Assembly (NCBI RefSeq): GCF_900120165.1
Contig: NZ_LT635475.1
Location: forward strand, 1,488,001-1,552,000
Length of the DNA: 64,000 nucleotides
From: Ezakiella massiliensis
GTDB lineage: Bacteria; Bacillota; Clostridia; Tissierellales; Peptoniphilaceae
Direction: 5' to 3'
Shown here: in pieces, positions 28,798 to 60,189 of the stretch
Numbering within the stretch: position 1 is the first letter of the stretch
Layout: every line of letters begins with the position of its first letter
The notes under the pieces: generated by a model
The model's input: the letters and a program-made list of their open reading frames with translations, nothing else
Databases searched by the model: none
What the model was told of the DNA's origin: nothing
Position numbers and translations under genes: made by a program

Positions 28798-28887
28798 GGA
28801 GAGATGGCCGAGCGGTTGAAGGCGCCCGCCTGGAAAGCGAGTATACGCTTAAACGTATCGAGGGTTCGAATCCCTCTCTCTCCGCCA
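28798..28887 (+). tRNA. tRNA-Ser (anticodon GGA)
   Basis: 90 nt with CCA encoded. The acceptor stem GGAGAGA/TCTCTCC, the D-arm GGCCGAGCGGTTGAAGGC, the anticodon loop CTGGAAA (anticodon GGA, reads UCC and UCU), a long class II variable arm, and the T-arm GAGGGTTCGAATCCCTC are all clear. Long variable arm and discriminator G fit serine. Confidence 0.97.
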
Positions 28888-28888
28888 T

Positions 28889-29156
28889 GGTGCAAGACGG
28901 GGGGCTAGCGGTTCCTTGTAATCTGCAATCCGCTGTAGCAGAGTCTGACTTTTTTGAGGGCTTTTTGTGGTCGGATGCTATTGTGGCATCTTGGTGTTGA
29001 TACATTGGACCTATATGCAACGATAAGTGCGCCGAACCTCGTCAGGTCGGGAACGAAGCAGCGATACGCGTTTCTTTCGTGTGACATATAGCCATCCGTG
29101 AGGAGCCAAGTGCCATGGTGGGCACGGTTGCAAATGTTCGATTCTAAGTCCGCACC
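28889..29156 (+). ncRNA. ffs: Signal recognition particle RNA, large bacterial type
   Basis: About 268 nt. The S domain has the SRP hallmark GTCAGGTCGGGAACGAAGCAGC (split here as GTCAGGTCGGGAA and CGAAGCAGC), and the 5' part GGCTAGCGGTTCC...TGTAATCTGCAATCCGCT is the Alu-like domain seen in Clostridia and Bacilli. The ends pair as GGTGC (28889-28893) with GCACC (29152-29156). It scaffolds Ffh for co-translational membrane targeting. Only one base separates it from the tRNA-Ser CCA, so both probably come from one transcript. Precise ends are inferred from pairing. Confidence 0.93.
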
Positions 29157-29166
29157 TTACATATTT

Positions 29167-36675: not shown

Positions 36676-36884
36676 TCAATAAAATTTTTTGCCCGAAATT
36701 CTCCTCAGATTGTTGACCCAATCAAACAAAATTTTTTGTCCGAAATAAATCGGACGCTACCTAAAATTTTGTTTTCGTGAACAAGAGCTTGCGTGAGTGA
36801 GCGTATGCCAATCGGTCAATTTTTACACGAGGCGGTGGTTACCATAAAGGTAACCTCTACAATTTCCGCCTCGTTTTTTATTGA
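36676..36884. ncRNA. Structured repeat element, copy 1 (opposite orientation to copy 2)
   Basis: About 209 bp, closed by TCAATAAAA/TTTTATTGA (36676-36684 with 36876-36884). Inside: a nested hairpin CAAAATTT...GTCCGA/TCGGAC...AAATTTTG (36727-36771) and a second one ACGAGGCGG/CCGCCTCGT enclosing GGTTACC/GGTAACC (36827-36874), whose plus-strand end runs into Ts. Read on the minus strand it shares ACTCACGCAA-N-CTCTTGTTCA and TCTGAGGAGAAT exactly, in the same order, with the element at 57795-57973. It lies between convergent genes and has no open reading frame of note. A mobile-element remnant or an RNA gene. Confidence 0.55.
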
Positions 36885-36963
36885 CCTCTTGGGAGTGGTT
36901 GCAATTGGACACTACAGAAATTTTGCAAAATAAAATTTGTCGAAAATAAAAATCAAAAACTCC

Positions 36964-57499: not shown

Positions 57500-57545
57500 A
57501 TGTAAAATTTCGCGCGAGATTTGTGGTTAATTTTGCGATATTCTC

Positions 57546-57611
57546 GTGAAAAAATTTTTTAGTCCTCGATGTACACTTGAGTACACCTGCGTCCTAAAAA
57601 ATTTATTTCAC
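57546..57611. repeat. Long imperfect hairpin
   Basis: Arms CGTGAAAAAATTTTTTAG and CTAAAAAATTTATTTCAC are nearly complementary over 17 bp and enclose TGTAC/GTACA. It opens the repeat-rich tract (57500-58039), which holds no convincing gene; short open frames across it are broken by the repeats. Confidence 0.6.
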
Positions 57612-57624
57612 TTCGAAGCCCTAG

Positions 57625-57660
57625 CCCAAGAGACAAGTCCGCAAGGACGCTGTCGATTGG
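57625..57660 (+). repeat. 36-bp direct repeat, copy A
   Basis: 34 of 36 bp equal to 57839-57874. Both contain GTCC-GCNA-GGAC, a hairpin with a GNRA tetraloop (GCAA here, GCGA in copy B). Confidence 0.85.
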
Positions 57661-57794
57661 CTAGCAGGTCTCGTGTCAGAAATTCCCAAGAGAACGAGTG
57701 TAACGATGTTCGATTGGTGAATTTTACGGCCCTCATCGAAATTCCCTCACAAATCGTGCAATAAATTAAGTGACTGCAAACTTCTTTCTCCAAT

Positions 57795-57973
57795 AAGGAA
57801 AAATTTAGTGAAGCGTGTAGGGTCCACTTGCAGCCCTGCCCAAGAGACAAGTCCGCGAGGACGCCGTCGATTGGTATGCAGTGACTCACGCAACCTCTTG
57901 TTCAATCGTTGGACCGAAGGGAAGAACGATTGAGGACAAGAGTCTGAGGAGAATGTGGACCGAATTTTTCCTT
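57795..57973 (+). ncRNA. Structured repeat element, copy 2 (candidate RNA)
   Basis: About 179 nt, closed by an 11-bp helix AAGGAAAAATT/AATTTTTCCTT (57795-57805 with 57963-57973) and a second helix GGTCCAC/GTGGACC (57821-57827 with 57955-57961). Inside are a GNRA hairpin GTCC-GCGA-GGAC (57851-57862) and a long hairpin of 7+9 bp with a 2-nt bulge (57895-57910 with 57925-57942). GC content is clearly above the surroundings. It shares two exact sequence blocks with the reverse complement of 36676-36884. Strand is assigned from the GNRA hairpin only and is a guess. Confidence 0.55.
57839..57874 (+). repeat. 36-bp direct repeat, copy B
   Basis: Second copy, inside the structured element at 57795-57973; differs from copy A at two positions, one of which keeps the GNRA loop. 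Confidence 0.85.
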
Positions 57974-57992
57974 TATATAACAAACCAATGCA

Positions 57993-58018
57993 CAAAAAAA
58001 GTGACCGTGTGGCCACTT
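57993..58018 (-). terminator. Terminator after mnmA
   Basis: AAGTGGCC/GGTCACTT on the minus strand with one mismatch and a T run. Confidence 0.78.
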
Positions 58019-58039
58019 AATTTTTTAAATTACTATTTT

Positions 58040-60189
<2,150 letters not shown>

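Follow-up and report, generated by a model that had tools for sequence, protein, structure and literature searches.

What is the structured segment at positions 57795-57973, and does its structure belong to RNA or to DNA? Positions here are those of the window, that is, the whole stretch of 64,000 nucleotides that was analysed. A preliminary description made from the letters alone had proposed a new RNA or mobile-element family, with a second copy near 36.7 kb. We find that the segment is a composite of two repeat families, a REP hairpin and a 127-nt two-hairpin insert lying in the REP loop. Our preferred reading, to which we give a probability of roughly two in three, is that 57795-57973 is a filled REP, in which a GTAG hairpin of the type that RAYTs (Y1 HUH transposases) act on as single-stranded DNA carries an order-wide two-hairpin DNA element in its TTTAT loop.

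Architecture of the composite element

Folded as single-stranded DNA, the + strand of 57795-57973 gives a z-score of -5.14, and the closing arms, 7-bp inner helix, GNRA-type (GCGA) hairpin and long bulged hairpin described beforehand are all present in this fold. Folded as RNA it gives a z-score of -4.66, with a minimum-energy fold in which the 7-bp helix is opened and P1 differs from the DNA fold; in either case 0 of 200 shuffles were equally low. The extent of the whole unit, which comprises outer arms, GTAG REP hairpin and loop insert on the + strand, follows from the DNA fold, the BLAST copies and the model match. Its outermost parts are a 5′ arm (57795-57806) and a 3′ arm (57962-57973) that pair with each other in the DNA fold. 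Inside them stands the tetranucleotide GTAG (57817-57820), the 5′ foot of the REP hairpin, identified by sequence and by a genome-wide pattern with its control and unpaired in the DNA fold. The REP stem is formed by GGTCCAC (57821-57827) and GTGGACC (57955-57961), as indicated by the DNA fold, by permutations of cognate pairing (0/10000, see below) and by an empty counterpart (L025) that reads GGTCCAC-TTTAT-GTGGACC and whose 24-nt flanks show 88% and 62% identity.

The insert (57828-57954) was assigned to its order-wide family by models R1 and R2 and by covariation. It contains helix P1 (57836-57881; CTGCCCAA / TTGG..GCAG), with a tandem GA step, the GCGA-capped hairpin and a position for variable content, slot X, as supported by the DNA fold and covariation; a conserved junction block ACTCACGCAAC (57884-57894), invariant in 19/19 rows of alignment A5; helix P2 (57895-57942), the long bulged hairpin with slot Y; and a conserved 3′ block TCTGAGGAGAAT (57943-57954), invariant in A5 save for one G/A position. 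In the same alignment two pairs of P1 and five of P2 are altered on both sides. The ortholog of the composite in the sister species is a REP with an empty loop, in a locus that is otherwise rearranged, so that the two sites differ in more than the insert.

Model R1, whose source copies include 57795-57973 itself, finds three members in the window: 57817-57961 (+, E 4.7e-37), 36691-36915 (-, E 1.5e-7) and 57613-57725 (+, E 3.9e-7). The last, which is the 5′ neighbour of the composite, has a variant junction GTCTCGTGTCAGA and a row in alignment A6, and had not been described before. The second copy near 36.7 kb is thus real, and the blocks it was said to share, ACTCACGCAA-N-CTCTTGTTCA and TCTGAGGAGAAT, are found in its reverse complement, although its span of 36676-36884 is superseded by that of the R1 match. 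That its closing helix differs also holds, but the helix had been misidentified: by homology it is the REP stem TGTCCAA/TTCGGGC and not TCAATAAAA/TTTTATTGA. This stem is decayed, and an intact TGTCCGA/TCGGACA stands at the same site in the sister-species ortholog. Further REP hairpins are nested in both slots of this second member, an empty REP GTAGCGTCCGATTTATTTCGGAC in slot Y at 36738-36760 (-; pattern match G000:C1:1524738-1524760) and an empty REP GTAGAGGTTACCTTTATGGTAACC in slot X at 36837-36860 (-; REP scan), and the slot content of the site differs between the two species. Both copies lie between convergent genes, as had been noted: YbjQ/MnmA, and a radical SAM-DUF3641 protein/YitT. Elsewhere in the window a large SRP RNA (28888-29157) adjoins a tRNA (28798-28884).

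GTAG REPs in the genome and its relatives

REPs of this kind are short hairpins with GTAG (GTAC in a subset) at the 5′ foot, a 7-bp stem and a loop that is usually TTTAT. A strict pattern for them matched 40 times in this genome (G000) and 49 times in the sister species (G001), whereas four further genomes of the genus (G002-G005), G007 and G009 had no match; the reversed pattern, used as a control, had no match in any of the eight genomes. Scanning the collected loci for TTTAT-loop hairpins yielded 131 distinct empty REPs (60 from G000, 71 from G001). Another 22 REP hairpins (22/153 in total) are filled, with a stem of at least 5 bp around 102-209 nt; the filled scan returned 23 calls, one of which (L217) lacks GTAG and does not count as a REP. 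The sister species are 90-97% identical over most orthologous stretches.

In the 1.74 Mb genome, BLAST at E<=1 with a 211-base stretch gave at least 58 partial matches, and 40 of 52 first-look candidates were scored. A 181-base core at E<=0.001 had 24 matches in G000 and 29 in G001, and none in the remaining 39 of 41 genomes. A lack of further copies in relatives had been named beforehand as grounds for rejecting a family, but such copies do exist. Plasmids and phages gave no match at E 1e-5.

In its account of REP searching, PMC6006769 asks for GTAG or GTGG at 0-2 nt from a fully paired 7-20-nt stem with a loop of 2-5 nt. Against this rule, the GTAG foot is borne out by the genome-wide pattern (40 and 49 matches versus 0 in the controls), and empty REPs of the GGTCCAC class fit with 7 bp and a 5-nt loop. 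Empty REPs of the GTCCGA class have 6 bp and a 6-nt loop, and filled REPs exceed the loop size. REPs occur in many copies in both species, and their intergenic position was checked for the two window loci.

Other repeated sequences lie close to these elements. IS-like ends (TGGGGTGTTCCCAAAAAGTTGGACA and TGTCCTGTTCCCCGAAAATTGGACA) abut the REP 3′ foot at L191, L196, L045, L156, L199, L225, L221, L026 and L216; REPs may thus be target sites for insertion sequences, as they are for IS1397 in E. coli. Often a hairpin whose loop resembles that of a tRNA T-arm (GGGTTCGATGCCC) stands 3′ of REPs (L160/L062 and many REP 3′ flanks), and from a REP plus this hairpin ARAGORN builds a false tRNA-Phe(gaa). 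A repeated stretch of ~1-1.6 kb near insert copies (L029, L145, L148) is 95-96% identical between the sister species.

A RAYT-type transposase gene beside REPs

Both REP-bearing genomes have one match each to Y1_Tnp (Pfam PF01797) above the Pfam cut-off, and there is none in the four same-genus genomes without the REP pattern (one of which, G003, is 71% complete). The gene also matches the NCBIfam model REP_Tyr_transpos (NF047646, REP-associated tyrosine transposase; E 6.7e-19), with scores of 68.2 and 71.3 bits that lie under the curated cut-off of 80, and for this reason we call it 'RAYT-type'. REPs stand on both sides of it in G000 and G001. In another genus, g55 (G144, G145), RAYT-type genes lie between GTAGGGGCGA[CT] hairpins, whose loops in some cases hold the start of the insert, and the reading frame of G145 has one internal stop; the REP-RAYT link rests on one sister-species pair and genus g55. 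Among 130 genomes of the family, the close form of the gene occurs in G000 and G001 only, and 11 genomes including these two have a relative at E<=1e-10.

Residues H77, H79, W124, Q125, R134, Y145, N149 and P150 are invariant in the 15 sequences of alignment A1, in which the HUH, catalytic Tyr, WQ and NP motifs of RAYT / TnpA_REP are present. In a phmmer alignment with E. coli TnpA_REP 4er8, which is a weak match (E 0.053), W124, Q125, R134, Y145 and N149 fall opposite W94, Q95, R104, Y115 and N119, with positions counted from the printed alignment. PMC6006769 regards the W94-R104 region as the part that reads GTAG, with the role of W94 itself given as unclear, and N119 as a metal ligand about four residues past the catalytic Tyr. 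Through this gene and the GTAG REPs, the connection with the IS200/IS605 superfamily suspected beforehand is retained. Genome G043 has filled GTAG hairpins and no Y1_Tnp match.

Empty and filled REPs, their junctions and nesting

Of the 23 filled calls, 19 have an empty REP relative with at least 60% match over 24 nt on both flanks; L217 belongs to the remaining four. These relatives are paralogous only; L159, considered as an orthologous empty site for L017, was dropped as its position and orientation differ. Letter-shuffled flanks, allowed the same shifts as the real ones, gave a mean of 0.025 of 23, and flanks re-paired among filled copies gave 9.4 (range 7-13), a figure as high as this because REP flanks fall into few recurrent types. 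Part of the empty/filled matching stems from these recurrent types. In the best pairs, L019/L179 and L017/L008, each of the two flanks matches at 92-100%.

The REP stem across the insert is real: in the 32 of 46 distinct copies that have both ends, the heptamers flanking the insert form more pairs with each other (mean 5.56 of 7) than with those of other copies (4.46), with 0/10000 permutations as good. The orientation of the insert relative to GTAG is 42:0 in distinct cases, and TT precedes it at 42/42 REP-context 5′ junctions. Four of 46 distinct 5′ junctions have no GTA[GC] within 22 nt, and three of these four have CT for TT. At the 3′ end, AAT follows in 48 of 61 distinct cases, REP context or not. 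Filled GTAG hairpins were also found in other genera, in G145 (GTAGGGGCGAC..GTCGCCC) and G043 (GTAGGGGCGAGC..GCTCGCCC).

Nesting runs in the other direction as well, in that the slots in P1 and P2 are occupied either by a short hairpin or by another REP, which brings arms of its own. At one orthologous site, G000 has a nested REP in slot X where G001 has a simple hairpin. Since slot contents differ at orthologous sites, modules have been exchanged among copies and between sister species; recombination between copies is a sufficient explanation for this exchange, and we take the mosaics to have arisen in that way. By eye, nesting appears to go one level deeper in L009.

RAYTs cut and join single-stranded REP hairpins beside the GTAG foot. 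Applied to this genome, the RAYT-type protein would read GTAG and the hairpin foot on single-stranded DNA and so move REPs. Filled REPs would spread with the REP, the loop being a tolerated site, or via recombination between copies, and recombination at the conserved blocks would reshuffle the slots. Judged from sequence, REP mobility by the RAYT is likely and carriage of the insert by RAYT-moved REPs is possible. How a filled loop would be received by the enzyme is informed by PMC8266576, in whose account group-3 RAYTs read the REP loop, the Marinomonas enzyme needing T12, T13 and A15 with position 14 free (loop TTNA), and the loop of the E. coli REP has an unspecific, structural role only. 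Because group-3 RAYTs read the loop, filling it could block recognition. By analogy, insertion at the one unread loop position would fit the TT that is kept before the insert and the AAT that follows it; alternatively, the TT would belong to the insert itself. Filled and empty versions of similar REPs offer a natural test of which REP parts are required by a RAYT and of the way in which REPs spread, a process that is poorly understood according to the abstract of PMC8266576.

An insert family across the order

A variable closing stem surrounds the helices P1 and P2 of the insert and the conserved blocks that separate them. A search with model R1 detects the insert in 13 of 130 family genomes, and one with model R2, built from 19 diverse members, in 133 of 249 genomes of the order and 52 of 92 genera (E<=0.01 for both). 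In 398 genomes drawn from the phylum the insert occurs in 9 (E<=0.001), seven of which are outside the order. The E-values of the models are rough, with a short calibration, and the copies per genome in searches of more than 40 genomes are lower bounds (best 24, 13 or 8 candidates per genome).

In A7, an alignment of 81 members of which 76 distinct rows were used, 88.5% of cells pair against 65.2% when shuffled, and 30/33 pairs change on both sides; slid controls for the 81 members pair at <45%. In A6 (MAFFT, 19 members, hand-drawn structure) the pairing is 85.3% against 70.3%, with 20/33 pairs changing on both sides. These counts lean towards structure, because A7 was fitted to the model and the hand-drawn A6 structure derives from the very sequences that were counted. 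Compensatory change is strong, so that absence of covariation, the second ground for rejection named in the preliminary description, does not apply. Pairing extends to the closing stem outside the core: in 69 members (from 74 flanked, after removal of equal 5′ flanks) cognate flanks pair at a mean of -8.8 versus -6.5 kcal/mol, with 0/10000 permutations as good, and the changed but still paired closing helix first described from two copies is kept order-wide. In G043 and G145 this stem is a GTAG hairpin; elsewhere it is another palindrome, or none is evident. Together with the copies in G000 and G001 and the empty and filled REPs, the covariation upholds the idea of a structurally conserved multi-copy family with mobile-element character.

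The family extends beyond the REPs. G002 and G005, of the same genus, have four insert matches each and neither the REP pattern nor Y1_Tnp, and over the 249 genomes insert and Y1_Tnp occur independently (odds ratio 1.11, p 0.79). The insert family is therefore independent of Y1 transposases in general, and a RAYT as the driver of the whole family is ruled out.

No Rfam family reaches its gathering score on the element, either in the window or in the loci of 20 relatives. In 57500-58050, at E up to 5, there are four sub-threshold matches far below their gathering scores; SNORD109A, which falls over the element at 16.1 bits versus 35 needed, was taken as chance. No description of the insert family was found in Rfam or in literature searches on REP/RAYT in Firmicutes/Clostridia and on repeats in the order. 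The alignments thus define a large covarying repeat family beyond the reach of the Rfam models used here.

Insert members at gene ends

Some members touch the end of a gene. In 9 of 78 distinct members there is a match to a loose RlmD-type C-terminal motif that runs into the element, about seven of them convincing (the matches of L303 and L318 look like chance), and in four a second copy start directly follows. The motif reads into the first codons of the insert in L264, L277, L279, L302, L310 and L322, and by eye in L321; in L277, L310 and L321 a second copy start that follows directly suggests repeated insertion at one spot. L264 encodes a complete protein of the tRNA_U5-meth_tr family, and its end lies inside the element; it is after the protein family that such genes are here called rlmD-type (23S rRNA m5U methyltransferase). 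The printed 260-nt centre of L270, L271, L272 and L274 is identical in four genera (G018, G126, G041, G052), and three of these loci are 97-100% equal over 3.1 kb; recent horizontal transfer of this copy is probable. In L271 its neighbours are genes for a large serine recombinase and for a protein with a nucleotidyltransferase domain.

These cases bear on the best surviving alternative, which is nonetheless unlikely in our estimate: that the insert is a target or attachment hairpin which integrates at hairpin loops and at rlmD-type 3′ ends, supplies the gene's last codons and owes its movement to some recombinase that is not the RAYT. The motif-bearing members, the second copies directly after some of them, the protein of L264 that ends inside the element and the copy shared by four genera, with its neighbouring recombinase in L271, are all compatible with such an element, and rumA is mentioned in parts of the literature on streptococcal ICEs. 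Most members examined, however, are not at an rlmD-type gene, no att core or site duplication is defined, and no recombinase is demonstrated as common to the carriers.

Structure in DNA or in RNA

Wobble pairs allow DNA-level and RNA-level structure to be told apart. Over the 25 pairs with a Watson-Crick share of 75% or more, we counted 30 G.U cells, 25 A.C cells and 61 other mismatches, whereas fixed stem positions of 53 tRNAs from the same loci gave 59 G.U and 4 A.C (Fisher p 9e-7 versus the insert); related sequences are not independent in this comparison, some mismatches are alignment error and the tRNA-finding program favours G.U. The RNA-type excess of G.U over A.C is not found in the insert helices. 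Since a transcript under selection should tolerate G.U, the pairing appears to be conserved in DNA, as single strands, as cruciforms or through a mutational process. The count is a simple means of separating the two levels of structure in other covarying intergenic families.

A mutational process acting by itself would be the next alternative, somewhat less probable than the attachment hairpin. Template switching at quasi-palindromes, together with gene conversion, would perfect helices with no selection on a folded molecule. The lack of a G.U excess and the exchange of modules between copies and sister species agree with it, as does a deletion-like chimera that seems, by eye, to join two copies. 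It is at odds with the 30/33 compensating pairs and with a helix plan and single-stranded junction blocks that are kept in 52/92 genera despite diverged helix sequences.

Lower still we place a structured regulatory RNA, or a 3′-UTR/terminator-like element at convergent or 3′ gene ends, and with it the RNA family of the preliminary description. The low z-score of the RNA fold (-4.66), the strong covariation, the convergent genes around two window copies and the gene 3′ ends overlapped by some insert members are what it would lead one to expect. The G.U to A.C ratio of 30 to 25, against 59 to 4 in tRNAs of the same loci, argues against it, as do the high copy number, the nesting, the pairs of empty and filled REPs and the absence of an Rfam match at threshold. 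A relic of HEARO/omega-RNA or of IS605 ends, also suggested beforehand, is very improbable, for a Y1 transposase relative is present but no HEARO match was found at gathering score in the window or in the loci of 20 relatives, or at E up to 5 in 57500-58050.

Returning to the filled REP, the results can be drawn together in a broader and more tentative picture, which we hold to be somewhat less probable than its negation, of mobile DNA that nests within itself. An order-wide single-stranded-DNA element would land in the loops of RAYT-driven REPs in a Firmicute and would itself offer slots to REPs, and every layer would keep the foot read by the transposase (GTAG and the TT..AT loop remnants). 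If this holds, hairpins pile up inside hairpins, each layer retaining its transposase-read foot.

Comparison with known systems

Imperfectly palindromic, multi-copy intergenic elements of ~100-150 bp are familiar from ERIC, BOX and similar repeats, which the insert resembles. It differs from them in its junction plan with conserved single-stranded blocks, its order-wide occurrence and its tie to REPs in some genera. With REPINs and BIMEs the present elements share composite, mosaic REP arrangements, but the copies compared here are concentric nests and not two inverted REPs around a spacer.

The closest likeness is to the REPtrons of E. coli, Stenotrophomonas and Marinomonas, which have the same GTAG foot, short palindrome, many copies and REP-flanked RAYT gene, and the same HUH motif, single Tyr, and WQ and NP motifs in the protein. 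The host here, in contrast, is a Firmicute, and a structured element of 102-209 nt fills the loops in 22 of 153 REP hairpins. The named protein neighbours of its MnmA come from Tissierellia, Lagierella, Helcococcus, Anaerococcus and Finegoldia, from which we take the host to be of Peptoniphilaceae type. The 2013 catalogue (PMC3733652) gives GTAG repeats in Proteobacteria, Cyanobacteria, Chloroflexi and PVC, and its main text contains neither 'Firmicutes' nor 'Clostridi'. PMC6006769, where it treats classification, has Clostridia under subclass 1.1 and other phyla under REP-type subclasses. Our results point to a REPtron, RAYT plus GTAG REPs, in the Firmicutes, a group absent from the main-text account of PMC3733652. 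The catalogue does describe REPs nested in palindromes, namely A. variabilis GTAG-15 and T. roseum GTAG-23. The likeness lies in REPs nested within palindromic sequences; there, however, the REP is in the palindrome, whereas here a multi-helix, order-wide guest is also inside the REP loop, and REPs are again inside the guest. GTAG REPs, RAYTs and palindromes that harbour REPs are thus already known from PMC3733652. To judge by the literature and Rfam searches, a Firmicute REPtron, the order-wide insert family and the concentric nesting of the two are new.
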